In this document: positions 1 through 61,551 of the stretch, one piece after another
Layout: every line of letters begins with the position of its first letter
How positions within the stretch are numbered: position 1 is the stretch's first letter
Assembly: GCA_020881915.1 (NCBI GenBank)
Contig: JAJFPB010000009.1
Coordinates: 1,674,001 to 1,738,000, forward strand
Direction of reading: 5' to 3'
Source of the DNA: Paramyrothecium sp. XJ0827
Lineage: Eukaryota; Ascomycota; Sordariomycetes; Hypocreales; Stachybotryaceae
DNA length: 64,000 nucleotides
Program-made: the position numbers and the translations under genes
The notes under the pieces: generated by a model
Seen by the model: the letters and a program-made list of their open reading frames with translations, nothing else
Databases searched by the model: none
Told to the model about the DNA's origin: nothing

Positions 1-3000
1 GTACTAAGTATAAAGTCTAATATATTAGTTTCTAATTTAATTATCTTATTAGGGTTAAATATAGTAAGAATTAGTTCTTTAGTAATAAGCTTCTTAATTT
101 CTTTAAATACTTATTAGACTTCCTTATTTTAATCTTAGTTAAATTCTTATTTCTTTTTTATAAAGTTAATTAATAGTACTATAATTTTACTAAAGTTCTT
201 AATAAATTATTAGTAGTAATTAGTAAATCTAAGGAAGCTCTATATATTTTTTATATTTTTTAGAGATTCTTATTTATATACTACTATAATTTTTTCTTTT
301 TTTATTTAGATCTTATTAGGTTAAATAATATATTTAAGGTAGTTTACCTCTTAGATATAGAAGTTACTCTTTTTTAATTTAATTAATAAATTAGTATCTT
401 AAAGTACTTTAAATACCTTATAAATATATTTTTTATATTATTTTTTATTATCTAAGAAAATAAGAATATTATTAAGGTATATAACTATAAAGTTATTTAT
501 ATATTCCCTTAAGATATAATTAATTATTCTTTAGAATATTACTAATATATTAATTAATCTAAAAAGTATAACTAAATATTTAAATAAATTAAATTTAGTA
601 TAAAATACTATTTTCTATTCTTTTTCTTTCTTAATCTAAATTAGATTATATATTTCTTTTAGATTAAGTATAATAAAGATTATTTTACTATATAATTAAT
701 TATATATTTTTATAATAAGTAGTAATAAAATATAGTTCTTTATAGTAATCTTATTAAGTTATTAGTAATCTACTACTAATTAGAATTTTCTATTCTTTTT
801 TAGTATAAATATAATTAGGTACCTTACTAATAAAGTTAATTACTAAATATATTCTTTTCTAAGGTTTTTCTTAATATATTCTTTTAGTATTTATAGTTCT
901 TAGATATTAAGATTATAAATTAGTAGGAAGTAGGTTTTTTTCTTATTAATAAGGCAGATTTTATAGTCCTATTAAGAGTATTCTAGTAGTCCTAATTTAA
1001 ATTCCTTCTAGAATAGCTTCTTATAAATATAATATATTTCTAAGATATTCTTTATTCTTTCTCTAAGTTCTTCCCTTTTTATTTTAGGATCTTCTTTTTA
1101 TTAATTAAATAGATCTTCTACTATTTATTTTAGTATTTATTATAACTTCTTAAGATATAAGGTTCCTTAGTTTATATTAGCTTAGCTTTATTTATATTAT
1201 AAACTAGATTATAGTAGTTCTTCCTTAACTATAGTAGCTTTTATTATATAATCCCTTCTAGTTTTATATTATTTATCTTACTTAGATAGTAGTTTATAGT
1301 AAATATTTACTTTCTCTCTTTTCTCTTAATCTTTAGGTTCCTATTCTAGTATAAATCTTAACTTATATATCTAGCTAGTAATCTAATTAATCTATAATTT
1401 TTAAATTTAAATTATAATCTCCTAAGAAAAATAGATTTATTACTTAGTAATATAATATTAAAGATTATTTTAAAAGTTATATTATAACTATAAAGTATTA
1501 AGGGATATATTTCCTTATTAATAAACCTATTATTATAGGTAAGTAATACCTCTTTAATTAACTTTATAATATAACTTCTTTTACCTTTTCTTCTTTATAG
1601 TAATTAGAATTAGTTTATTAATCTAAAATTAATAAAACTTTAAGTTACTTTAGAATTTAATTCTATAATAGTTTTATATTTATTTATTATTACCTTAATT
1701 ATAATAATCTTATATATTACCTTATTATAGTTTTAGATTATACTAAAGGTTATTTAATTATTATACTTTACTTATAGCTCTTTTATAAATAAATATCTTT
1801 ATTTTTTACCTAGTTTATTTTAATAAGAATATTATTAATATTCTATAGAGATTTCTATTTTACTTTATTCTAGAGATTTAGTATTTAAATTATAATAGTA
1901 AAGTATCTATAGTAGAAGTTATTTAATATATAGTACCTATTATATTATTTAGTATAGTAATTAGAGATTCTTTTATTTAGTTTCCTTTTTAGAAGGTAAG
2001 CCTATACTAAGTACTTTAATTAATCTATAACTACTAATAATTAATTATTTCTTCTATTAATCTTTTTTATATTACTAGTTATTATTAGGTATTTAAAGTA
2101 TACTTCCTTAGATATATAATATCTTTAGTATTTTTCTTTATATTTTATTAAAGTAGTACTATTATAGAGATTTAAAAATCTATAGAATCTTATTTTCCTT
2201 TTTTCTTTATAGTAAAGGTATTCTATAGAGTATTCTTAGTAGCTTTCTACCTAATATAACTTAGCTTTCTCTATTTTATTTAGTAGCCTATTTTTATTTA
2301 GCTACTATTATTTAGTTTCTTATAGATTTTAATAGTATTAGAGTTTCTTAGTAGTATATTATTTATAGTAGATTATAAAATAATCTCTTATATTTTATTT
2401 ATTCTAATATTCTTATAATTAATATAAATCTCTTTATAGAACTATAATCTTATATTATTTATATATTACTTCCTTAATCTAGTACTAGAGGTCTCTTATA
2501 TTATATAGTAAGATAATATTCTATTCTCTTACCCTTATTAGGAAGATTTTATTTTCTACCTTCTTATTAAGGTATATTATATATAGATACTATAAGTATA
2601 AAATCTATATAATATTATAGTATTATAAATAGTTAATATCTATATATAAGTTATTTTCTCTTTAGATTCTTAGTAGTTATATATATATGGGGTTTAGTAG
2701 GGCTTCTTCTATTATAATTATATAAATAAAGATATTTTTATTTATATAGGGGTTTTATTATAATTTCCCTACTTTTTATATTATATAGTTTATTATTCTT
2801 TCTTTAGGGTTATTATTTAAATATTCTTACCCTTTATTTAAGTTCTCTAAGAATAAATTACTATTCTTACTTATTATTTTATTAATAATAGTATTAAAGT
2901 CTTTAGGGCTTAGTATTTATTTCTATAGCTAGGTATCTAAGATTTCTTATATATAATTACTTTTTATTATTTCCCTAGCTACTTCCTTGGGGTTTTTTAT

Positions 3001-5200
3001 ATATTAGTAATCCTATAAGTATATCCTATATCTATAGTTCTAATTTAGCTATAGTAATATAGTCTTAGTATATTATATTATTTTAATAATATAAGTTATA
3101 GTAATCTTACCTAGTTATTACTTATTTTTAGTAATTAAAGTAATCTTTCTTTTTTCTAGAATTAATCTTACTTAGGTTATTAATATTCTTAAGTAAAATA
3201 TCCTTTTTTACTATAGTTATAATAAGTAATATTTACTTTTTAGATTACTTTTAGCTTTATAGGGCCTAATTTAGTCCTATAGGAGATATTTACTTATTTT
3301 TATAGCTTTAAGTTATTTATATTATACTTAATATATAGGGTACTTTTATATTATTTTTTCTCCCTTTTATATTTAAAGTTATATTTATTAATCTTAATTA
3401 CTTTATATATATATTCTTCTAGTAAGTATTTAAATTATTTAATCTTAATAAATTTATTTTTAATCTTCTTCTTATACTTATTATAGAAGATCTTCTTATA
3501 GACTTTTTTAATCTATTCTAACTTTAAAATAATTTATTTAAACTATACTATAAAGCTAATATATAACTTAATTTAAATTATCTTATTAAGATCTTATTTT
3601 ACTTCTTAGACTTTATTTATAATATTAAAGGTTTTTTTAATATATTTTTTAAACTTATTAAAGTTATAAAAGATTTTCTTTATATCTTCCTTATATTTAA
3701 TTATAGATTTAGTAATATAATTATAGAGTATAAATTTAAACTAGGTAAGGGCATTACTCTTTAAGCTTTAAGCTATAAACTTAATTTACTTTTTATTTAT
3801 AATAAAGATATTAAAGAAGTATAGAAAGTAGGCTCTAAGTACTATAAGAAATCCTTAGAGCTTATAAGGGCTTCTATTAAAGGATTTAAGCTTATATAAC
3901 TTAATAACTATACTTAATTCTCTTTTATATTCTCTAGTATTCTATATATTTAGGAGCCTTTAGAACTAGGCCTTAGTACTTTAGATTATATAGAAATTAA
4001 GATTAGTAGCCTTCTATAGCTATTACTTAAGTTAAGTAATAATATTCTTAAGATAATTAATTTTATAAGATCTAATTAATATTATAACTATATTAGCTTA
4101 GATTTAATTAATTTTAGCTATAAGGATCTAGATTTATTACTTAAGTATTTTAATTTCTTAGTTCTTTTTATTATTAAAGTTATTATTAGATTCCTTATTT
4201 AGATCTCTTATTTTAATATTATCCCTAGAGGGGGTCTTAAATAATATTTCTTTAATTCTACTCTTGCCTTTAGTAGTAAATATAGAGAGCTTAGAATCTT
4301 CTCCTATTATTATAAGTATTACTTTAAGAAAATAATATATCTTAGAATAAGAGCTATTAATATATATTAACTAGGCCTAGATCTAAGTATAAGATAAGTA
4401 GTTTTATAGTTTATTATTTAATATAGAAAATAGGATTTTCTCTTAAAGTAATAGATTACTTATTATTAGTTTATAAGACTTCTTTTCTAGAAGCTAGTTA
4501 AAAGATATCTTAGGGATTATATATTATTAATAGCTAGTAGGTTCTAATCTAAATATAAGATATAGAATCTCCTATTTATATATATAGTTTTCTACCTTTA
4601 AAGTACTAGATTATTTATTAGTTATAATCTAATAGTTCTTACTAGATTATAATAAGACTATAATCTATTAATCTATATTAGTAGGTTTCTTATAGCTTCT
4701 TTATTATTTATAGAAATCTTCTTCTATATAGGTCCTTATTCTTATTAAATATTTTCCTATTTCTATCCTTTTATTTCTAGCCTTTTATTTCTAGCCCTTC
4801 TTTTATACTAGTATTTAATTTAGGCTAGTATATTAAGGCTAGCCTATAGGTTATACTAGTAGCACAGAAGCTAGTCTATCTTAAGGCTAGTAGCCCAAGG
4901 CTAGTATAGCATTTATATATTATATTATATAACTTCCTACGGCTTAGTTATAGCCTTGGGTCAGGTTGTAACACAAGTGCCTATAGTATATTATATTATA
5001 GATATCTTTATTATTGATTTTGTTGTTACTATATCTGAGGTTTTAGGTATTAGATCTCCCTATTAAATTATTTTTATTATATTTAGGTCCCTATTTAAGA
5101 TTCTTAAATTTAGGTTATCTTAATAAATTTCTTAATTAGACTAATATTATATACTAAGCTTTTAGTAACTAAGATACATATATACTAAATTCGGCCTTCA
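1..5200. repeat. AT-rich, RIP-degraded repeat block
   Basis: This block is overwhelmingly A+T, rich in TpA, and I see essentially no CpG until about position 4,935. No open reading frame of useful length survives. Normal base composition returns abruptly near 5,180-5,230. This is the expected footprint of repeat-induced point mutation (C to T on both strands) acting on transposon DNA. A Gypsy polymerase can still be recognised at its left end; the stretch from about 1,100 to 4,900 probably holds the rest of that element (protease, gag, LTR) or other repeats, but I could not identify them residue by residue. The left end lies outside the window. Confidence 0.85.
300..1060 (-). mobile_element. 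Degenerate Ty3/Gypsy reverse transcriptase
   Basis: Reading the minus strand from about 1,060 down to 300 gives, in order and despite many stop codons, the hallmarks of a fungal Gypsy polymerase: the entry segment just before the palm, the segment rich in KKK followed by LR and LN, the KLDL / AY region, the KTAF-like region, and the catalytic YLDD block (minus strand, roughly 490-445), which now reads YLDN followed by ILIFS. It continues into the KVF / NLL and YI block near 420-330. Differences from the family consensus are mainly those produced by C to T or G to A change, consistent with RIP. RNase H and integrase would lie left of position 1; protease and gag would lie to the right. The element is inactive. 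Frames were read by eye, so limits are approximate. Confidence 0.7.
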
Positions 5201-8316: not shown

Positions 8317-8428
8317 GACGTGGGAAAGCTCAGATGTCTATTTATTAACGACAAGGCTGATGTTTTCCTAAGTCATCCACTGTCAGTCTGTTCATATTGT
8401 TCTGTGCATAACATTATAATTGGGTGCC

Positions 8429-9998
8429 ATGCGTCTGTTAAACAGTGTGATTATCGGCCTTCTAATCGAAAGGACCGGGACAGCCCTAGCCCAAACATCT
8501 CAAACTCCAGCATCAGCAGCACCAGCTCCCGGTCCAGGATCTGAGGTGTCAGTTCCAGCATCAACTCCGGTAATCGAAGCATCAGTTCCAGTATCAACTC
8601 CGGTAATCGAAGCGTCAGTTCCAGCATCAACTCCGGTAATCGAAGCGTCAGTTCCAGCATCAGCTCCGGTAATCGAAGCGTCAGTTCCAGTGTCAACTCC
8701 GGTAATCGAAGCGTCAGTTCCAGTATCAGCTCCGGTAATCGAAGCGTCAGCTCCAGTATCAGCTCCGGTAATCGAAGCGTCAGCTCCAGTATCAGCTCCG
8801 GTAATCGAAGCGTCAGCTCCAGTATCAGCTCCAGTATCCGAAGCGTCAGCTCCAGTATCAGCTCCAGTATCCGAAGCATCAGCTCCAGTATCCGAAGCAT
8901 CAGCTCCAGTATCCGAAGCGTCAGCTCCAGTATCAGCTCCAGTATCCGAAGCATTAGCTCCAGTATCCGAAGCGTCAGCTCCAGTATCAGCTCCAGTACC
9001 TGAAGCATCAGCTCCAGTATCTGAAGCGAGCACTGGGACCATCCTGGGTATAGCTGCTAGTCCCAGCCTCAGCTCCGGCACAGATATCGGTCCCACCAAT
9101 ACTGCTGAAGGGCGTCCTGAGGCTCCTAATACTCAGGGGCTGACTGGGGCCATCAGTGAGCCCACTGGCACACCCGTAGAAACGCCGCCCAGCGCCACGG
9201 AATCCACGGCACCTACCGGCCCTTCTGCCAGCCCTACAGGGAAGTCGATCGAATTGAACCTCAGCGACGCTATACTCGGCGAACACGCAACTTCTATCAT
9301 GGTCGACGGGGAGCCAGCAATGTAAGTCCCTCCTGGTAGCTGCTTCATATCTGTTATAAGTTAACATGTACGATAGTGAACTAAGCGCTCCACCTAACGG
9401 CCGCGCATCTTTCAGTCTTAACGTCATGAAGCCATTAGACATCGCGCCAGGGGAACTCGTGAGCCTAATAGCTTCAATCAGAGTTGGGGACATTGGCGCT
9501 CCCAACCCACAAGTCAGGGTTCTCTTGCAACGGGAAAGTACAGGCTCCCAGTTTCAGATGATCATGGACGAAAAAACTGTTTACGATAAAGAACTTCAGA
9601 CTACCGCGGGCAAGTTCGAACAGTTGCAGAGTGAAAAAACCAAGGTTTCAGAAAACCCAAAAGTTGAAGTAGTCCAGAAATCAGGGGATAAATCCGTGCC
9701 TCTCACTGTTCATAGTCTCATGTTAGTGGAGGCGGAGAAAGCAGCCCTCTTACCTGAGACCACTCGGACAGAGTTTGCTTCTCCTGGTCAGGAAACTAGC
9801 GCTCCTAGTGGAATTGGCGGAGAGTCTGGGAACTCGGGCTCTGTGTCTAGCCTCTCCAAAACTGGCACTGGCACTAACCCCGCTACACCAACCAGTTCTG
9901 GGCCGGTGCCGCTTGTGCCAAACGAGGGGGGACATGATCCTATCGTGGACAAAGTCGCGTTATATGTGGTACCTCTCATCGCAGCTTTTCTACTCTGA
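8429..9998 (+). CDS. GPI-anchored cell-surface protein with tandem repeats
   Basis: Two exons, 8429..9321 and 9377..9998, with a 55-nt intron (GTAAGT to GATAG, branch TTAAC), encode 504 residues. The true ATG is 8429, giving a signal peptide (MRLLNSVIIGLLIERTGTALA). Residues about 38-200 are a low-complexity array of 11-residue units of the type ASxPVSxPVxE. Then follow a Ser/Thr/Pro spacer, a globular domain of about 150 residues (roughly 270-420) without cysteines that resembles no family I can name, a second Gly/Ser/Thr/Pro stalk, and a C-terminal hydrophobic segment (VALYVVPLIAAFLL) right at the end, as in GPI-anchor signals. The layout suggests a wall-bound adhesin-like protein whose array serves as an O-glycosylated stalk. 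Array length probably varies between strains. Confidence 0.75.
8543..9030 (+). repeat. Coding minisatellite, 33-bp unit
   Basis: Twelve full 33-bp units (11 codons) plus four 21-bp derivatives (ASAPVSE type), in two sequence blocks: an earlier one with PVIE units and a later one with PVSE units. Because every unit is a multiple of three and lacks stops, two other frames on the minus strand are also open across it; these are side effects, not genes. Confidence 0.9.
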
Positions 9999-34680: not shown

Positions 34681-36847
34681 GGCTGACGATCAAGAGCAGA
34701 CAGTGCACCTGACACTGTTCTAAGCAGATAGCAATAAATTTATCAGGAGCGCTGTTTGTCAGACTAAATAGCTATCTCCCTTCCAAATTTATGTTTCATA
34801 ACTGATGACACACCTTAAACCAGACTCTCTGACGACAATTCGCTTGTCCAAGACATTGCCGCTTTTGCTTACTGTTAGTTGAGGAGTGCTCAGGTTCGGT
34901 TCAGTGCGGCTCAGCTCAGCTCACCTGGCCTTGGCGGTTGCTCCCCTTGTATCACACGCAGGCGCACACATGGCCAGAAATTATCCCCTGAATCGGACAG
35001 AGAGCAAGCTTGATTTGGTTTTAATAGAGCATAACATGAATCGGGTGGCTTGATCAGGTGCTAAGAGACCGCAGCAAATGATAAGCTCGGGGAGAGCTTG
35101 AGCTGAGCGTGGCTTGCTACTCAGCTCTTCAAACCCATGCACGCATGCAGCCTCACCAACAATCAAGCGGAAAGCCCCATGCAGCCGCGGAACTCCTGTT
35201 TCGAGGCTCCATACTCTGCATTCCCTGATCCGTTGCCAACAGGGCATCCATGTTTTTCAGGCATATTAACATGCTTAACCGTGACGCTCCAGCATCCGTG
35301 CAGCTTCCCAAGCTCCTCGACGAAGATGAAGCCAGAGATTCCCAAGATGTGCATAGTTTTCTGGTTCAACACCAAGCGCGTTACAGCGACAACGAAATAG
35401 AGCTCGAGCCCGTCAAGGTCGACTGCATCGTTTCTTCGACAAGGGCCTGCCTAAGACCGGAAGGTAGCAGTTGCAGTCTCCTTGGCAGAGCAGAGCCGTA
35501 GTCCGTGTCACAGCCTCCACGTCTGCCCAATCTTCCCCCACGTACAAATATCTACATAGAATTATGATAGTTTGCTAAGGTGATATTGGTATTGTAAAAG
35601 TAGCCAGCCAATATGTAAAATACTTTCAGGTCTGTGAGCAATACTCGATGAGCCAAGTAACCCCCTGTGATTCACTTCTGATTGGATCTGGGAGATCCTT
35701 GTGCGTGACATGGATTACGGGCTCCGCACTGCCAAGGAGATTGGCACCAGGATGTCCATGGTCCATCCCACTGGGTTAGAGAGACAGCTCTGGCTCTGTC
35801 CGGCTCGTCCCATCGTCCCACCGTCCCGATGGGTGCATTGTTGATAGACAAGATTGCATAGCGCTGTTAGATTCGAGGGCAAGAGAGGTCTATCAAATCC
35901 TCTCTTCTGCATCTCGATTGACGCTGTGTAGGAAGTTAAGGAGGCTTGCGCTGTGAGAGACCAAAGTGATAGAGGCGCTGACCAGGATTCCCAGAGGGCT
36001 TTGGATCTCTAAAATAAGAATTAGACGCCGAGGCAAAGTGCAGATTGCCGGCGCTTCAGGGCTGAGTATCCTGATTGGTTTTCACGGTCAATCCGGCCTC
36101 GGGGGTGGAAGATCTTGCATGTAAAAGGGGGAACATAATAAGCACCGCCCCCTGCAATGTGAGAGGAATCAATGAATCAAGGGAAACACCTAAAAAGGTT
36201 GAAGCTGATCTGCAGTATACGAGGGAAGCAAGCTGTGCGAATTGAGCGGACAATCCGTTCTTTTAATCTCGCCATACGTCAGGTACACTTCGATAGTTTT
36301 ACAAGCCAATTCAAGCTTTAAGTTTACGCATCCGGACACAGTTTAACGATGCCCCAGTACATTATTCGTAATACGATGGAGCAGCGGGAAGGGTTGCACA
36401 CAGCCTTGACCGGGCTTGTTTCACCTCCAGCCTACATTCTTGGCGTCTATGCGATGGGAGGCTGAATGGCTGGGATTGTAAGCGATGAAAGCCTCAGCAG
36501 TTTTTTCCTTCTCTTTTGCATAGCAGGCTGAGAGTTTTCTTGCACCTCTTCATCCCTGTCTGATCCTTTCACACTTATTTCTCAGCCGCTTATCCGCTTG
36601 GCGAATTTCGCCGCGCCTCCAAGGCTATCTGTGTTCGTTATTCCTTATCATAGCCTCTTCACCCCCCCTTCCTTAAAAATCTGGATAATTTCCGAAGCTT
36701 TCTTTGTTACAGGCGAGTCTTTCTACTCGGCATCAGCATCCTAGAAACTGACCCTTCCATCGAACTTTTGCTTATGTTCTGAAATTATTCCCTTGCGATT
36801 CAGTCCTACAACCATTATTACAATTGCCGCTTCTGCAACCCATTTTA
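34681..36847. other. Intergenic region
   Basis: More than 2 kb without a convincing gene. Contains a small tandem tract GGCTCAGCTCAGCTCA near 34,911. The right end is CT-rich (about 36,500-36,740), as in fungal promoters, ahead of the receptor gene. Confidence 0.5.
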
Positions 36848-39800
36848 ATGATGGAAAGGCCCGGCAATTCTTCACCCATCGACACTCCATTGGCAATAAA
36901 ACCGTTGTCCATCTGGAAGCTAGGCCTTTCAGAAGTCTCAAGCGGAGGAGGAACTCCGGATCTCGATATCGTCTTCGTCCATGGTCTAAATGGACATCCA
37001 GAGCACACATGGACAGCAAAGTCTTCGACCAAGCCCGCCGACTCCAATCAGCCCAATTCACTCTTGTTCCGGATGAAAAAGAAGTTGAAGAAAACGAAAA
37101 ATTCTGAAAGCGAGGCCGATCGACTGTCATGCTTCTGGCCAAGAGATCTTTTAGCAGCTGATCTCCCGGGTGCGCGGATTTACACCTACGGCTACGACTC
37201 GTCACCCAGCCATTTTTTCAATGGCCCGGCCAACAAGAGCAATATTCATGATCATGGACGGGATCTACTCACACGTCTCGCTTCTGTCCGTGGACAATGC
37301 CGGGGTCGGCCTTTGATGTTTATCGCCCATTCACTCGGTGGTCTAGTCGTCAAGTCCGTAAGCTTGATATGTGTCTATGCCGCAAGGCTGCGAGAACACT
37401 CCGCTAACCGAGCACCAGACACTATACCTAGCGAACGAAGAATACGAGGAGAAGGAGAATTTAAAGGACATCAACAAGTCAACCATCGCCGTTCTATTCT
37501 TCGGAACGCCGCACCGAGGCTCTCAGTGGGTAAATGCGGGCAAGACGTTAGGAAGATGCGCAAAAGTAATGGGGTTTTCTGTTTCCGACTTGAATCTTGA
37601 CCTACTCACACCTAACAACCCTCTGTTGGAGACGCTTCGCGACAACTTTGTTAAACGCCTAGAGAAAGACAGGCTGAAAGTCACATCTTTCCAGGAGCAA
37701 AGGGGATACGCAGGGATTAAAGGGTTGGATGAACTAGTAAGCCGCCGGCCACACCCAAAGGGTCAATTCTTGTCTAACACAATCGTAGATTGTCGAATCT
37801 GACGCTTCAGCAATTGATCACCGGAAGGAGAGTAGGCAAGCAATCAACGCGAATCACGTGGAGATGTGCAAGTTCTGGCGTACAGGAGAGACACATCAAA
37901 CGTATGAACAGATAGTGTTGTCGGAAATCAGGAGGTACATCGCAGAAATTGGTGATGAAGTCAATACGAGTACGTATAATTAGAAATCAAACACTGCCAA
38001 GTCTGGTCTAACAAACCAACAGGCATTGCTGCGCTTCAGTCTTTTCGACACGACCTGGGCATTCGCAGAGATCAGATTGAAGAACCATTCGGAAATACAT
38101 TTTCATGGCTTCTACTCAAGAAACCCAAGGGACCAGGCCTCATGGAGTGGCTCTCCGATACGGATCGGATATACTGGATTCAAGGCCACCCAGGATCTGG
38201 AAAGTCCACTGCCATGAAGGTGTTAGCGCAGTCAGAAGCCGTGAGGACATGTCTTGACAATGCTGGTTGGTGGCATGCGTCCATGTTCCTCTCTGACAGA
38301 ATTGGACCAGCTAATAAATCGTGGAGGGGTGTTCTTGGAGCGATGCTCTGTCACTTATTGGAGAAGGAAGGCCCCAAACTTCTCCCTTTGCTCAGATCCT
38401 TCATTGTTCCTCGCTACTGCACCCCTGCTACCGTGCACGATGACGACTCACCAAAGAAAGAGAGACATTTCGACTGGACACTTGATCGACTGAAAAGAAT
38501 ACTTCTCCAGTGCAAAAATCAGACCCTCGCGGAATTTTCCTGTTGCTTCTTCATCGATGCATTGGACGAGCATGACAAAAGCGAGCTCTCTGGACCCGAG
38601 TCCATAGTTGAGTTCTTGGAGCAATTAGTTTCGGTTGAAGGGCCAGGCCTCGGAAAGTTCAAGGTATGTCTCGCTAGCCGGCCGGACAATGAGTTTGATA
38701 TTCCACTGTCTGGCTATCCGGGGTTTCGGATGCAAGACTGGACAAGAGACGATATTTCCAGTTTTGTTGTTGGGCGCTTGCAGTCACATCGAGATGCAAT
38801 GAGCTCTCAATCAGAAGAATACGATCGGAATCTCGGAATAATTTGCAAGACAATCATCCATGATTCTCATGGTCTGTTTATCTGGGTTCGTCTTGTTGTT
38901 CAGGACGTCTGGGATGGTATGACCAACGGTCACAGTTTGGAAGCTCTCCTCAGTGCCTTGGAACGGGTACCCACCAGAGAGTTGCCCCAGTTCTACCTAC
39001 ATATTCTCCGGAAGAGGCCCAAAGAAACATTAAGACAGACTCACGCTGTTCTCCAGACTGTAATGCAGGCTCAAGTCCCGGTATCCGTTCTCGACATTGG
39101 GATACTCTTAACAACCCTTTCAGTCGAACTGCAAGACCTAGAACCCATCAACCGACATTTCTCAATCCAGCAGCTTCTCCAACTTTCTAACAATGGCAAA
39201 AACCTAGGGAGGATCTTGAAGAACTTAACGGGGGGTCTACTACAAGTCGTTAGAGAAAACGAACAAGTGCAGACGGACTTGTTCCATAACTTGGCAACCA
39301 GCAGTTCTGCACATGTTGTTCATGCTCCTACATGGAGGGTACAGTTTCTTCACCAAACGGTCAAGGAATTTCTTCAGAGCCAGCTTTTCAAGACAAATAT
39401 TGACGCTATCTTACGCGAACAGCCTGGGGGACACTTCGAAAACAATCGCATGGATGATGGTCACACTTTGCACCTAAAACTAGCCGTCATAGCTGCAGGA
39501 GTTCCTCCAAACGCGAAAAAGCAATCCTTATGGAAGCTTGATCCGATGGAGACGGTAATATCCCATGCACCCCTGGCGGAGAAACTGACCGGCCGCTCCT
39601 TTTTCCGAGTTCTTAATTCGCTAGACAACCATTTCTCACACACATCAAGCCTATCTGAGAGTTGGGCCTCCGACTATGCCAATTTGAGAGACAGGACTTG
39701 GGTTCCAACGTTTCTCGCCTATGCCGTTTCATCCAATATGCAGTTATTTGTTGCTGAAGCTCTGAAAAATGACAAAGCTGGACTCTTGGAGAAGAAAGGT

Positions 39801-40481
39801 CGTCCTTTGTTGCACTTTGCTGGATGGACTCCGGGTCGCTTTCCGAATCCTGAGATGGCCAAAATTTTGATCAACGCGGGCGCCAACGTCAATTGGGAGT
39901 TCGATGAAAAAGAAGACCATGGCTGTTCCAAGACAGCTCTTGAAAGCATATTATATCATGAACTGGACAGAGATGGCCAGTCGCATTGCGACTACATCAA
40001 GTTGCTGATCAAAGAAGGTGCCGACGTATCTCGTCCGACAGGTGAAAGTTGGACCACAGTGTTGCATGCTATTGCCAATATGAAGGTAGGCTGGGATAAG
40101 AAGATGGACATAATTGGGACTCTCCCCAAAATGTGTGACCTGAACGGCAAGGATCGGAATGGGCGATCGGTTTTCGAACTTTTGATAGATTCCGCGGTCG
40201 AACAGAAGGGAATCATCGCAGAGATGCATCTTACGATGTTGCTGGGGGAGCGCCGTGCGAGAATAACCGAACGCCTGGCGCAGCAGATCTGTGGACGACG
40301 TCTCCCTATATTGATCCTCAATCTCTTCAACCGGAAAATATTTCTCAAGCCAGAGTACTATAATACTCAGGCTGAGGAGGTAATGAGAAAGTATGGATAT
40401 TGGGAGAAGAGCCATCAGGAGAAGAGCCATCGGGAGAAGAGCCATCGGGATCAGTTTAAGAGATTATTTCAGAGGTATTAA
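36848..40481 (+). CDS. NOD-like receptor: SesB-type hydrolase, NACHT, ankyrin
   Basis: Four exons, 36848..37357, 37419..37736, 37789..37969 and 38023..40481, give an unbroken 1,155-residue protein; the first intron has a textbook GCTAAC branch site. The N-terminal domain (about 35-300) is an alpha/beta hydrolase of the SesB group: DIVFVHGLNGHPEHTW, FWPRDLL, AHSLGGLVVKS with nucleophile Ser 162, and LFFGTPHRGS. The NACHT domain follows: Walker A GHPGSGKST (391-399) and Walker B CCFFIDALDE (510-519). After winged-helix-like sequence (FLHQTVKEFLQS) the C-terminal part has ankyrin-type repeats (MAKILINAGANVN at about 945; LLIKEGADVS). In fungi such proteins act in non-self recognition and regulated cell death, with the hydrolase as effector. 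The end is a charged EKSH repeat. All catalytic and nucleotide-binding motifs look intact. Confidence 0.9.
40403..40447 (+). repeat. Three tandem 15-bp units at the end of the receptor gene
   Basis: GGAGAAGAGCCATCR repeated three times, coding for EKSHQ/EKSHR units just before the stop codon. Such short in-frame arrays change copy number easily. Confidence 0.85.
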
Positions 40482-52774: not shown

Positions 52775-53997
52775 CTAACAGTAAAAGTACCTAGTTAGTC
52801 TTCTGCAACGGCTCATCACATGGGGGTGGAATAAGCTTACCTGAACCACCAACCTTCACGGGTTCCCGCACCACCACGCTCACAGTTGTTCACCGCAAGC
52901 TTAAGGATCTCGTTGCACTGGGTTGTTGAAAGAGTTGCACCGGCACCGAAGTCATTACGAACCTCGAACTGGATCTTGTTCTCGCCAAAGGGAGCGTTAA
53001 AGCATCCGGTCTTGCGTTGTGCGGTAGCAAAACCACCGGTGCCGTCCCCGCTGGAGTTTCCGTCGCACCAGTTGCTAACCGCACTCAACGCGGCAGGCTT
53101 GTTATCGCCCCATGTCTTGCCGTTGCCGGCGCCACAAGTCGTCTGAGTTGCTGGTTGGAAACCGAGGGTACGCACGCAAACGTTAACATTGGCCCAGAGC
53201 CCAGAGCAAGGTGAGGTCACCGATGTATGCCATTGCACAATTCTATCAGCCCTAACGCTGTGTCTGGCGCCAATGCTAGCGCAGGTGTCACCCGACTTGA
53301 CGAAATAGAATCTTTCGCAGTTTCTCACCATACCCGACTGGATTGGTAAGGGGGTGCTCACTCCATTGCCAGTGCTTCTCGTGGATGATGGTCTTGTTGA
53401 CGATGTTGACCTCACTGTCGTTGTTGGCCTTATTGTGGTCCCTGGCATTCCGATAACCCCGACACAGACATTCACATTTGCCCAGAGGCCTGTGCAGTCC
53501 GATTTGATGGTCGGATTCCAAGCTTCGAGTTGCTGGAAAGTGATTTGATACTCGAAAGTGATTTCATCACAGTTTTGATTCGGCTTGACGAAGTGGAACT
53601 TGTTGCAGTTACGCACCATACCAAGCTGGGTCGGCAAGGGGGTCTGCACACCGTTGTCGACGCTGGCAGAGGAAGTGGTGGAGGGCCTTGTTGACGTCGC
53701 CCTGGATGTCGATGACGCACGTGTGGTTGTGGCAGGTAGAGCAGGCGGCTCGCCCGTCCATTCAACGCAGTACCACTGGCCGACTGCAAGAGAAGCACAA
53801 TTAACACCTGGATTGTAGCTGATAAATTGGGCCTCAGTGATGTCGAAGTTTCGCGCCATAGATGCGCAAGTGTCACCTGTGTTTGCTGGCCAGGTGAAGG
53901 TGCACTCTCGCTTGTGAAGAGCAGCAGCGCCGGCCCCAATGGCGAACTGGAGGGCAACTAGGCTTGGAAGAACATCCACAGCTCTGAGAAGAACCAT
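52775..53997 (-). CDS. Secreted protein with three LysM domains
   Basis: Two exons, 53997..52841 and 52790..52775, 390 residues; the short last exon follows a GTAAGC intron ending CTAACTAG and adds only RYFYC-type residues. Without splicing the protein ends at 52,837. A signal peptide is followed by LysM-type modules at about 32-80 (TWPANTGDTCASMARNF, YNPGVNC), 131-181 (FVKPNQNCDEI, WNPTIKSDC) and 227-277 (FVKSGDTCASI, CSGLWANVNVC), separated by Ser/Thr-rich linkers. The last 110 residues form a separate Cys-containing domain (GNGKTWGDNKPAALSAV, NEILKLAVNNCERGG) that I cannot name. LysM modules bind chitin fragments; in fungi such proteins hide chitin from host receptors or protect hyphae from chitinases. 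It is next to a chitinase of the killer-toxin type. Confidence 0.9.
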
Positions 53998-54783: not shown

Positions 54784-55449
54784 TCACATCAAGATTCCCC
54801 CTCGTGCCCGCATAGCACCATTAACTTCTGGCACTTGTGTCGCTCCTACCATGCCTTCGGTTGGAACCGACCCAGGCCTTGCCGTTGTCGATGACGGCTT
54901 CAAAGCACCTGCATCAGCAGTTCCATGAGCCTCGGCGTGGCAAGCCGCGTACATGATGGTGATATTTAGCCAAGCGTCACCGCCTACCACCCCGTACATG
55001 GCATTAAACCATCCAATTGGGCACTCTTCCGCCAGAGACACGGCCGCGCTGCTATGTTCCGCCCACCAAGAAGACATAGCGCCGCCCCATGAAGAGATAT
55101 CCGAGACTAGAGGCTTAGGAGCGGCCGTCGGAAAGGCGCACCATTGCTCTTTAGACGGCCAGCAGGCATCGAATGCCTCGTCGCCAGCCGTTCGCGTGCA
55201 CGCGTCCACAACGCTGTCGGCGTAGCCATTCACGGCGTCAAGAAGGGCACCTGTCGGCCGAGGTGGATCAAAGTACTGCGTGAGATTTGCTACGACACAG
55301 TGCCAGTGGTCAGGTGGAAGATCTGTGGCTAGATCCGTAGGTAAAACAATCTTGTGAACAGTAGAGTCCGTCCATTCTTTCGCGAATGCCGATTTGGTGA
55401 AAAAGGCGAGCAGCATTGCGGCTCGAAGACCAGTGGATGGAGGCTTCAT
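54784..55449 (-). CDS. Small secreted protein of unknown function (DUF7735-like)
   Basis: Single exon, 221 residues from the ATG at 55449, which starts a signal peptide (LRAAMLLAFFTKSAFA). The mature part has five or six cysteines in a globular domain: HWHCVVANLTQYFDPPRPTG, CTRTAGDEAFDACWPSKEQWCAF, and EECPIGWFNAMYGVVGGDAWLN. A Ser/Thr-rich end follows. The phrase P(P/T)G followed by a helix and C..C..WC is typical of small fungal secreted proteins grouped as DUF7735; this assignment is tentative. Position between the LysM protein and the chitinase suggests a shared extracellular role. Confidence 0.7.
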   Translation of the reverse strand: MKPPSTGLRAAMLLAFFTKSAFAKEWTDSTVHKIVLPTDLATDLPPDHWHCVVANLTQYFDPPRPTGALLDAVNGYADSVVDACTRTAGDEAFDACWPSKEQWCAFPTAAPKPLVSDISSWGGAMSSWWAEHSSAAVSLAEECPIGWFNAMYGVVGGDAWLNITIMYAACHAEAHGTADAGALKPSSTTARPGSVPTEGMVGATQVPEVNGAMRARGGILM

Positions 55450-56667: not shown

Positions 56668-59600
56668 ATGATGTGGACTGGGACTCGGAGGCTCAAAAGA
56701 GCTTGCCTTCTCCATCTTCTGTTCTGTACTCACGGTGTCTTCGCTGCGCTCAACCTTGACGGTTCTCAAGCCGTTGAGCCTGCCATCAACAATGACGACC
56801 CTTCTCCTATTGCTGACCCCAACGCCTACTACCCGGATCAACACGATTGCCCTCTTCCTTGCGTCGAGTACGCGAACGTAAACAGCTGGATCACTTACTT
56901 CACGACTGATCGCCTCCGCCGCTGCGATGCGCCTATGCTCCTTCAATTATCTGTTTCCAAACCATTGGATGAATCCAAGTCCTCAAGTGCGGCGACTCTC
57001 ATCCGTGCGTGCACACTAGCGTCCTTGAGCAAGTCCGCAGCCGAGGCTGCCGTGTCAGTGTCCCCTGCGGGTACGCCTTATGCTTCTTCAATGGAGAATC
57101 CCAAGGTGGCGGACAACCTCGTTGAGGTGGGCATTGACACCGCGCCAGCGTGCGCTGTCCGGGGCTCGCAAGTCCTCGACCAGTTGACGTTGTCAAGAAG
57201 CAGTGACGGCAGCATCAACAAGGCAGTGGGTAGCGAGCAGGTTGCTCGGCTGTTGAAAGGCATGCAGCTGTATTTCAAGGACGAAGACAACTGCGACGAG
57301 AACTTCTTATTTGCCTACCACCAAAAGACCGTTGCAGGCCTCTATATTGGCGCCGGTCTCGGCAAGCCTACAGCTGACTCTGCACTCGAGACATTCGCAC
57401 AACATTTCCAGTCTGGACTTGTTGGCTCTGTCGCGAACCGAACTGTCACTGAGCTCTGCAGCAGCCAGCGCGGGCCAGAACGTATCTTCGGCATCGCTAT
57501 TGATACCAATGGCGACCTTGAAGGTATTCAACGGGCTGCCAGAGGTTGGAGCAAGGGAGATTGTGCTGTTGCCTGGGACCAAGATCTCGCTTCCGCCGGT
57601 AAGCTTTCTGGCGCTCAAGTCTTTGATATTGCAGGGGCGCCTTTTAATAGCACCACAACGCCGGCCAAAGGAGCCTCTTCCGCCAATGAAACCTCTTTGG
57701 CTTTCCATTCCAGATTCCGTGGGGGCTTGGGAGAAAGGCGGGCTTCGCGAGCCATTCAGTCGCGAGCAGCCACCTGCAGATATATACAGGTCGTCTTTGG
57801 CGATGGCTGTCAGTCCCTCGTCGCCAAATGCGGCATCTCGGCTCAGGATTTTGTCAAGTTCAACCCCAGAGCAGGTCTCTGCGGTAATTTGAAAGAGAAC
57901 GAGTATGTTTGTTGTTCCGCTGGGGACCCCTACGCGCCATCCAAGCCAGAGCCCCCAAAAGCTCAGCCAGACGGCACCTGCGCCACGCATGTGATCAAGA
58001 AAGGCGATACGTGCGATTCGCTAGCAAAGAAGCACGGTGTCACCATTGCTGACATCGAGAAGTGGAATAAGGGAAAGACATGGGCGTGGACAGAGTGCAA
58101 GGATATGCTCGAGGAGTATAATATGTGCCTGAGCCCAGGCAACGCACCCTTGCCCCCTCCACAAGAGGGAACCCAGTGCGGCCCTTTGGTGCCGGGGACG
58201 TTGCCACCATCCTCCTCATCTACCTCGCTTGCCGACCTCAATCCTTGCCCGCTCAAGTCGTGCTGTAGCAACTGGGGCTACTGCGGCGTATTCCCTGCCC
58301 ACTGCGACGTCCACATGCCCGAGGGTGGTGGGCCAGGCTCGAAGCTGGCCGAATATCAGAGCACGTGTGTATCTAATTGTGGCACGGGAATCAAGAGAAA
58401 CTCGGGCGCCCCCGCATCATTTGGGAGGATAGGATATTACGAGTCGTGGAACCTTGGACGAGACTGCTTGTGGCTGAAAGCCGAGGATGCCAACACTGAT
58501 GGCAGTTATACCCACATGCATTGGGGCTTCTTGGATATCGACCCCAATACTTGGAAGCCTATTATCAAAGATCCACATAACCAGTGGCAGGCCTTCAAGA
58601 AGTTGCCCAACATGAAGCGCATTGTGTCACTAGGTGGTTGGGCGTATTCGACCGAGCCCGCTACGTACAACATCATACGGCGTGCGATCATCGACAACCG
58701 TGAGAAGTTTGCCTCTAATCTTGCTCAATTTGCTGTCGATGAAGGAATCGATGGTATTGACATTGACTGGGAGTATCCGGGTGCCCCGGATATCATGGTT
58801 GGAGGCCAACCCATCGGGAAAAAGAGTGATGGCCTCGACTACCTCAAGTTCCTCACTGTGCTCAAACAAAAGGTCGGCAAGGATAAGTCTGTGTCTATTG
58901 CAGCACCGGCATCCTTTTGGTATCTCAAGGCGTTCCCAATAGACCGCATCGCCTCCATCATCGACTATATCGTCTACATGACTTATGATCTTCACGGCCA
59001 ATGGGATTATGGCAACCCGAATTCTTTCGACCAGTGTGATTCAGGCAAATGCATCCGCAGCCATGTTAATATCACAGAGACATTAAACGCTCTTGGCATG
59101 ATAACAAAGGCCGGTGTTCCCAACAACAAGATCTTCGTAGGTGAATCCAGTTACGGAAGGTCATTTCGCATGGCCCAGAATGGTTGCTGGGGACCACTCT
59201 GCGAGTTTACAGGCTCTCGTGAGGTTTCGAACGCCAAACCAGGCCGTTGCACGGGCACCGCTGGCTATTTAGCTAATGCCGAGATCGAAGAGATCTTGAA
59301 AAGGGGTAACGGGGCACGCATGTTCCGTGACTCCACATCGGACTCAGACATCCTGCTCTTTGACGGAGACTACGTCAGTTACATGACGCCGGCCACAAAG
59401 GAGAGGCGCCGAATGGACTGGAAAATTCTCAACTTTGCTGGCAGCATTGACTGGGCCGTGGACCTACAAGTCTTTGGAGATGCTGACATCGTTGACACCA
59501 TCGGACAGGTCGATGACGGCGCCGGAAACGGCTGTGTGTCAGGCGAGGATGTGACGCTTGACTCAGGTGATCTTTGTGAATTCACTTGTTCGCTCGGATT

Positions 59601-61551
59601 CTGTCCAGAGCCACTCTGTGCTTGTGTCTCTACTGGTCCGCTCAGCAAGCTGCCAGAGGAGATGGACGTCACAGGTATAGTTGCTTGGGATGAGTTTGAC
59701 GTGAACCTGAATCGTTTATGCAAGTTCGCCTGTAAGCACGGGTTTTGTCCAGAAGACATTTGTGGGAGGCCCGAGAAGCCAGACGCTGACATCGAGGATG
59801 ACCCAAGAGCAAACCAAGATAAATGTTCAGGAAATTGCATCCGTGATACAAACGGCAGAAACTGTCCTATATACAAAGACAAATCCTTAACCAATAACGA
59901 CATCTGTTACAACTTTTGCCGAACAATTCTCGAAAGAGCTAAACATGAAAATCCGTCACGCGTCACGAACTACGGCTGCGTTGGTGTCTGGCCGCTGGAC
60001 CAAAAGATCCGGTGGGAGTACAAGCCAGGGAAAGGATGGATCACTGGAGGTACTTGCGAGTGTAACAACTGGCTCGTCAACGAGATCGCCGAATTCGTCC
60101 TTGATGCATTACCAATAATTGCACAGGTTCGTTACATTTTCAGCCCAATGCCCCGTCTCAACTAACGATTTTGCGACAATGTTCAGATTGGATGCTACAT
60201 CCTTATGTCGTCATTAAAACTTGTGCTCGATATCGGACTCGACGCATTTCCGGCAGGCAGAGCTATTGGCGCAGGTCTCGGTAAGTCCTTGTATAACTTG
60301 TTCTGGCATACAATCACCGTGATTAGTGAAACTGTTCGCACTACAAACTTTCTTGATTCGCTATTCTTTAAATTCCATGACCCGGGTTGACTGACTAGGC
60401 TATGTGCAGACATGGCCGCCACGGCCGCGCAGACCGTCAATTATATCTACGATAAGGACAATGATCCAGCTGGTGCTTTTGAATGGTGGCTCGCACCTTG
60501 TGGGGGCTCTGCCCTTGTTCCCGATGAGATCAAACAAGTCTTCGAAACACTCAGTATGATCACAGATGGCATCACATACAAGCCCCCAAAGAATATCAAG
60601 AAGGGCAGTGGAAAAAAGGGCGATGAAGGCAATCCGCACGAGGAGGATCGCGGCATCAGGCCGGGCGGCGGCGGCGTCGGCAAGCCCAAGCCTAAATGCC
60701 GTGTCCCCCCTTCACAAGAAACGAAGCGGATGGGGGCAGCGAAGAACACGCTGAGAGTCCAGACATGCTCATCCGGCACGACGGTGCGCAATGAGTTGAT
60801 TGTCACTTCGCTTGTCTACGCGCCGGCTGCGACTGCCTTGCCGGTTACTGCGTCTTGTCAGAAGGCTTGGTCACAGGCCTGCTTCCACTACCAATCCGTC
60901 GTTGAAACGAACAAACAGTGGGCGACCATTACTTGTCCGTCTGAGGCTGCGTCGACTTCATGGCGCAACAGCGCGAGTGCGACAGCCACGTGGTCCAAGC
61001 AACACTCTGGCGCTGGATGGCAGTCGCCTAGCAATCGTCAGTCGAACGGCTGCGACCGTGACGAATACCCTCCGGCATACTTGCTCGGAAAGAATGATAT
61101 CGCGAACATCAACAGCGGAAAGGATGCAACGGGTCAGCTTGTCCGTTGGCTTCCGAGCCGCCAAAACCAAGCAGCGGGTCGTATGTGGAAGGGTGTCTGC
61201 TTTACACCGCCCGTCAAGGCATTGTCGGATGCGGAGCTTCGCAGGGCCATCTCTAGTAACACAAATATCGCACAACAGAAGATAGTTAACCTCAACAAGA
61301 ATGGTATCAAAATCAACCAGGTATACGGGAGGGCTACGGTCAACCAGCGACCTGAGTTCAGCATCACAAAATGGGGCCACACCCCAAACCAGGGTGGCGA
61401 CTGGGGCCTCTCGCAGAACCAATGCTGGCCCAAGGCGATTGCAGCAAACGACCCTGGCTTCGTTCTGCTGACGTACGACCCATACTATCAAGGAAAGGCA
61501 CCGCCGTACAATTACGAGCAGCCTTACAAGAAGGGCTCGAATGGTTCATGA
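56668..61551 (+). CDS. Killer-toxin-like GH18 chitinase with C-terminal nuclease-like domain
   Basis: Three exons, 56668..60126, 60187..60280 and 60410..61551, in phase, 1,564 residues. Order of parts: signal peptide (LLHLLFCTHGVFA); N-terminal domain with CPLPCVEYANVNSWITYF; LysM 1 (about 368-415) and LysM 2 (437-490, IKKGDTCDSLAKKHGV); a chitin-binding type-1 module (about 502-572, CCSNWGYCGVFPAHC); GH18 domain (587-938) with active-site DGIDIDWEYPG, Asp 695 and catalytic Glu 702; a Cys-rich region to about 1,153; a hydrophobic segment coded by the 31-residue exon 2; a Gly/Lys/Pro-rich linker; and a C-terminal domain. That domain has CDRDEYPPAYLL (from Cys 1399) and RWLPSRQNQAAG (about 1430-1441), which resemble the DEYP and PxxN-G motifs of NucA/NucB DNases. 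LysM-CBM18-GH18 is the plan of zymocin-type killer chitinases; the added nuclease-like end is my inference. Confidence 0.88.

Follow-up and report, generated by a model that had tools for sequence, protein, structure and literature searches.

A killer-toxin-like chitinase gene of Paramyrothecium sp. XJ0827 with a predicted NucB-like domain at the end of the same chain

The gene at 56668..61551 (forward strand) of a 64,000-nucleotide stretch of the Paramyrothecium sp. XJ0827 genome (assembly GCA_020881915.1, contig JAJFPB010000009.1, positions 1,674,001 to 1,738,000; hereafter the window, whose numbering is used) encodes, once two introns are removed, a chain of 1,564 residues from start codon to stop codon, with a chitinase in its front half and a nuclease-like domain at its C terminus. 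The locus raises the question of whether one polypeptide could both open a cell wall and carry a toxic cargo through it. It has been proposed that killer-toxin-like chitinases open walls for the entry of some other antifungal molecule (PMC8715425). The reading favored here, given a probability of about 0.55, is that the protein is a killer-toxin-like chitinase with a nuclease cargo in the same chain, which would act inside the target cell.

The gene sits on a 3.17-Mb contig of a 51.8-Mb genome assembled in 15 contigs. Each exon was found to be a single frame: exon 1 is open from 56668 to 60126 (1,153 codons), and exon 3 closes with the stop at 61551. Intron 1 is predicted at 60127..60186 (+; GTTCGT..GTTCAG) and intron 2 at 60281..60409 (+; GTAAGT..GTGCAG). 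Many other GT/AG pairs would also keep the frame, and this pair was picked by splice-site quality and by the annotated relatives, whose proteins read through both junctions in alignments. At E ≤ 0.001, a search with residues 560-1153 returned 1,951 proteins, and the best 120 were listed. The nuclease core was present in 82 of the 120, and a GH18 motif lay upstream in the same chain in 75 of those 82; the 38 relatives without the core include short or incomplete models together with 25 long chitinases that have another C terminus. It could be that exons 2 and 3 form a separate gene adjoining the chitinase, as the exon joins are predicted from splice sites and relatives, and as some relatives stand in databases as separate entries (P0204 and P0077, with neighboring accession numbers in one species). 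However, the 75 single-chain relatives among the 120 listed, and a second locus of this genome (L032, described below) in which the end of a hydrolase and the start of the same module lie inside one uninterrupted frame, make two genes highly improbable. The exon frames, introns and relatives thus bear out the earlier note, made from the letters of this DNA, in its claim of a single polypeptide of 1,564 residues, and support the assignment of chitinase and nuclease-like end to one predicted gene and one chain.

The C-terminal domain was explored in a predicted structure of exon 3, and the core used for profile work spans exon-3 residues 95-345 (60694..61446, +). The bacterial nuclease NucB is described as depending on Asp93, Glu94 and Asn117, which belong to DRDE and DNRG motifs, and as having Asp93 held by His53 (PMC5758888). 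The proposed equivalents, all on the forward strand, are His1344 (60886..60888) for His53, Asp1402-Glu1403 (61060..61065) for Asp93-Glu94, within the CDRDEYP motif at residues 1399-1405, and Asn1437 (61165..61167) for Asn117, within an LPSRQN motif that starts at 1432 and reads RQNQAAG around the Asn; the residues were paired by motif and order, not by residue-level superposition. In the exon-3 model the Asp-Glu pair lies in a strand (214-219), followed by a second strand (243-248) and by a helix (249-256) bearing the Asn, which is the order described for the beta-beta-alpha active site of NucB. Across 225 aligned rows from 220 sequences, with gaps set aside, the His was conserved in 196/208 rows, the Asp in 203/208, the Glu in 206/207 and the Asn in 202/206, while at least one of the four deviated in 19 rows, among them P0249, which is without the Asp. 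The comparison of a structure prediction with NucB, a check that the earlier note had proposed, returned a NucB-like predicted fold with catalytic equivalents in place, and at this level the domain is supported as NucB-like. A model of a 544-residue relative (P0029) reached a predicted local distance difference test score (pLDDT) of 80, with the nuclease part at about 97. A Foldseek search with the exon-3 model gave no match at E ≤ 0.001. Sequence searches of the PDB yielded only matches taken as chance and rejected, namely two parvalbumins with the family profile and a single match for each of two PF14040 pieces from this fungal genome.

In the front half, a signal-like hydrophobic start (residues 1-30, 56668..56757; judged by hydropathy) is followed by a degenerate LysM-like stretch (370-411, 57775..57900), a LysM module (441-468, 57988..58071; Pfam E 6.5e-9), a CBM18 (526-547, 58243..58308; PF00187, E 4.4e-7) and a GH18 chitinase domain (588-913, 58429..59406; Pfam E 5.6e-36), all on the forward strand. 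The claim of a CBM18 and a GH18 domain with a complete DGIDIDWEYPG catalytic motif held (residues 695-705, 58750-58782, +), whereas only one of the two LysM modules claimed with them passed Pfam, the first being recognizable by eye and under Pfam detection. NCBIfam gave partial GH18 and LysM matches under the cut-off for the window protein and nothing for exon 3. Missing from the earlier note were Cys-rich repeats after the GH18 domain (953-1030, 59524..59757, +), termed CBM24-like here from the database names of several relatives, with no CBM24 model behind the label; they resemble a stretch of a GH71 frame elsewhere in the genome (C3:285163). This frame belongs to L047 (C3:280500-290400), where a 1,060-residue GH71 frame (E 1.1e-133) carries repeats like those of the window gene and has no exon-3 match.

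By sequence, the combination of a complete-motif GH18 domain with LysM and CBM18 modules matches the architecture of subgroup C, the killer-toxin-like GH18 chitinases, which are common in ascomycetes. The order and kind of the front modules and the large size match those of Metarhizium anisopliae ChiMaC3 (CBM18, two CBM50, CBM24), for which a CBM24 within a GH18 chitinase was described as new (PMC4169460). In contrast to the window protein, the portion of that account available makes no mention of a nuclease end, and the term was not found there. A Metarhizium protein of the killer-toxin-like chitinase family (P0139) has the nuclease core.

Between the two halves lies a Cys-rich stretch (residues 1051-1145, 59818..60102, +), located by residue coordinates and by alignment with a GH55 paralogue, L032; the part common to the two proteins begins at window residue 1023. 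It precedes a hydrophobic stretch, assigned by hydropathy, that is divided by intron 1 into an exon-1 part (1146-1153, 60103..60126, +) and an exon-2 part (1154-1174, 60187..60249, +). The hydrophobic segment claimed earlier was present but of moderate strength: within about 1136-1174 the best 19-residue Kyte-Doolittle mean was 1.75, which on hydropathy is not a strong membrane helix. Homology of this stretch to the hairpin of sister chitinases was considered and rejected (hhalign 0.8%).

The module was also detected behind other hydrolases. At L032 (C15:2.18 Mb) a second copy aligns with window residues 1153-1564 over 460 columns at 43% identity, and the position of the first module intron agrees with that in the window gene. 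A 514-residue frame upstream matches GH55 beta-1,3-glucanase structures (3eqn, E 4.5e-95), and at the junction an unbroken frame of 317 residues matches the end of a GH55 structure in its residues 1-147 (5m5z, E 8.1e-21) and window residues 1023-1154 in its residues 186-304. The frames of the GH55 part, left unmended, do not join without a break, and the copy is possibly damaged. When P0221 was used as query, its length restricting the matches to about 441-1,403 residues, 39 proteins matched; two of them carry a GH71 alpha-1,3-glucanase ahead of the module and lack GH18: P0242 of Neopestalotiopsis clavispora (1,152 residues) and P0249 of Apiospora rasikravindrae (1,239 residues). These GH71 fusions rest on database gene models, whereas the GH18 and GH55 fusions were read at the DNA level. 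The end of P0249 gave weak kinase matches, so this model may be merged; P0242 was without such a sign. A hydrophobic stretch lies ahead of the nuclease in all three kinds, as seen by hydropathy in the window protein and the two GH71 proteins and by alignment in the GH55 copy.

In a six-frame search of the genome, exon 3 gave eight matches at six places. Besides the window and L032, these comprise C12:0.97 Mb and C7:0.105 Mb, where GH18 frames precede the match on the same strand, and C1:0.79 Mb and C15:3.116 Mb, where no hydrolase was seen among frames of at least 150 residues in the 9-10 kb fetched, two frames only being examined with Pfam at C1:0.79 Mb, which has a signal-like start; gene models are not established at any of these four places. 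A quick tree with a weak backbone, built from the window protein and alternate long GH18 rows (38 of 75), placed the GH55 and GH71 warheads among the GH18 rows, and neither a common origin of the two GH71 rows (approximately unbiased test, p-AU 0.545) nor one of GH55 with GH71 (0.47) was rejected. Conversely, a sister group of chitinases carries other C-termini; in Pfam the C-terminus of six among the 25 long core-less chitinases showed no domain above the cut-off. It is proposed that the Cys-rich, hydrophobic and NucB-like parts form a transferable unit, which also stands behind GH55 and GH71 glucanases. The likeness to bacterial polymorphic toxins that the earlier note had drawn would hold mainly in reverse, the warhead being kept while the wall hydrolase changes. 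GH18, GH55 and GH71 act on chitin, beta-1,3-glucan and alpha-1,3-glucan, respectively, all polymers of the fungal wall.

The chitinase-nuclease layout has a precedent in the protein pDH5A ORF2p of a Debaryomyces hansenii linear plasmid, for which a killer role was suggested on prediction in 2021 (PMC8472843). Like the window protein it is described as one secreted chain with a LysM fragment, chitin binding, GH18, one predicted transmembrane region and a NucA/NucB fragment; unlike it, it has 1,226 residues and belongs to a yeast cytoplasmic linear plasmid, the account containing no experiment and the comparison being by description only (PMC8472843). That paper was the sole one with a chitinase plus NucA/NucB among the open-access papers listed, and none of those listed described such a layout from filamentous fungi or placed the nuclease after GH55 or GH71. 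The cargo of the Kluyveromyces lactis killer toxin zymocin is a separate tRNase subunit, encoded on a linear cytoplasmic plasmid, whereas the window gene lies on its 3.17-Mb contig and holds a NucB-like cargo in the same chain. The two are alike in that the chitinase-bearing subunit of zymocin is thought to make way for a nuclease cargo (PMC8715425). Fungi are among the organisms for which a polymorphic-toxin survey of 2012 recorded ComI/NucA-type domains (Tox-ComI) (PMC3482391). With these and the bacterial NucB/NucA (ComI) enzymes the window domain shares the predicted fold, the DE motif, the Asn in the next helix and the supporting His (PMC5758888, PMC3482391); it differs in lying under Pfam detection, in the nine cysteines of exon 3 and in being fused to wall hydrolases.

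In the favored reading, the LysM, CBM18 and CBM24-like modules would anchor a secreted protein on a fungal wall, the GH18 domain would open that wall by cutting chitin locally, and the Cys-rich and hydrophobic stretches would aid the C-terminal domain across the membrane of the target cell. There this domain, acting as a metal-dependent NucB-type endonuclease, would cut nucleic acid and could kill the cell; sequence alone does not separate a DNase from an RNase. A bacterium has been reported to need a DNase effector for killing fungi (PMC9973263), and DNA damage is therefore a workable way to kill them. Several results weigh against this reading. The profile check proposed earlier came out negative, as PF14040 gave no match to the window protein at E ≤ 1 and matched 3 of 59 family members at that threshold, weakly (best E 0.007); these matches count for little because DUF7374 also matches 4 of the 59. 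When hhalign was run against three PF14040 sequences from this fungal genome, the probability was 0.64%, the DEYP and Asn regions being paired nonetheless, and a PF14040 scan of the genome found three other places, the window gene not among them. PF14040 was accordingly rejected as a plain sequence assignment. The NucA/NucB likeness claimed for the end of the protein stood in predicted fold and catalytic equivalents and fell as membership of PF14040 by cut-off. The P0029 model, run with a second-look aligner and a viral library, returned nothing useful; NucB was absent from the list, and this does not amount to a test of the fold.

The main rival is an extracellular nuclease that would act on DNA of the matrix, of debris or of host DNA traps, kept near the hyphae by its wall modules and with no translocation. 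The moderate hydrophobic stretch would suit such an enzyme, as would the description of NucB as a secreted, biofilm-degrading nuclease (PMC5758888). However, the nuclease is tied to enzymes for three different fungal wall polymers, and the hydrophobic stretch precedes it in the GH18, GH55 and GH71 kinds alike, which makes this account unlikely. It could also be that the NucB fold is degenerate or re-used, binding nucleic acid or some other target, or acting as an RNase, without DNase activity. The nuclease activity is one that we infer, for a domain under PF14040 detection, and the Arg of the DRDE motif is variable (R in only 126/207 rows). Against this, the four catalytic equivalents are strongly conserved in the 220 sequences, which leaves a re-used fold less probable still than the extracellular enzyme.

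Other features of the window and the genome were also recorded. The two annotated neighbors of the gene, considered as possible immunity genes of the polymorphic-toxin kind with no inhibitor family being searched for, are a LysM protein (52840-53997, -; three LysM stretches, Pfam E 7e-16, and a weak GBD_Y3 at the end) and a DUF7735 protein (54787-55449, -; E 3.6e-45) with one other, weak match in the genome. LysM proteins can protect hyphae against chitinases (PMC4392113). The annotation of P0211 of Pseudogymnoascus, perhaps a merged model of neighbors, puts DUF7735, GH18 and the module in a single chain. L024 (C9:719000-728999) has a Cys-rich frame of 988 residues and, after it, a PF14040 frame (E 8.1e-7), with Copia-like frames upstream and a GH18 match on the same strand at C9:732149-733177; here a transposon may have disrupted another chitinase-nuclease gene. 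Five further loci (L025, L026, L029, L030 and L031) hold killer-toxin-like chitinases that end in a strongly hydrophobic stretch with a Cys near the C-terminus; the cargo of zymocin is held to its partner by a disulfide. Elsewhere in the window, an 833-residue frame at 37980-40478 (+) with NPHP3_N (E 9.1e-16) and weak NACHT matches is by its domains a NOD-like receptor (NLR)-like gene; the frame before it, at 36752-37597 (+), matches the DUF676 esterase weakly, under the cut-off. Positions 1-4000 are very AT-rich (17% G+C, versus 42-53% elsewhere), and a tandem array of 33- and 21-base units (8548-9028) lies inside a 301-codon open frame (8420-9325). No RNA families or tRNAs were found in the window.

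If the chain does contain its own cargo, a single domain and a single active-site change would suffice for a direct test of the role of these chitinases in fungal conflict. It is tentatively suggested, as a possibility held less firmly than the reading of this one protein, that filamentous ascomycetes have a modular antifungal arsenal in which one translocation-plus-NucB warhead stands behind GH18, GH55 or GH71, and also without a recognized hydrolase, a eukaryotic counterpart of the polymorphic toxins in which the head is exchanged. A cargo shared by three kinds of wall hydrolase would, if true, be a clear eukaryotic modular weapon design, and many database proteins named only 'chitinase' would carry a nuclease.
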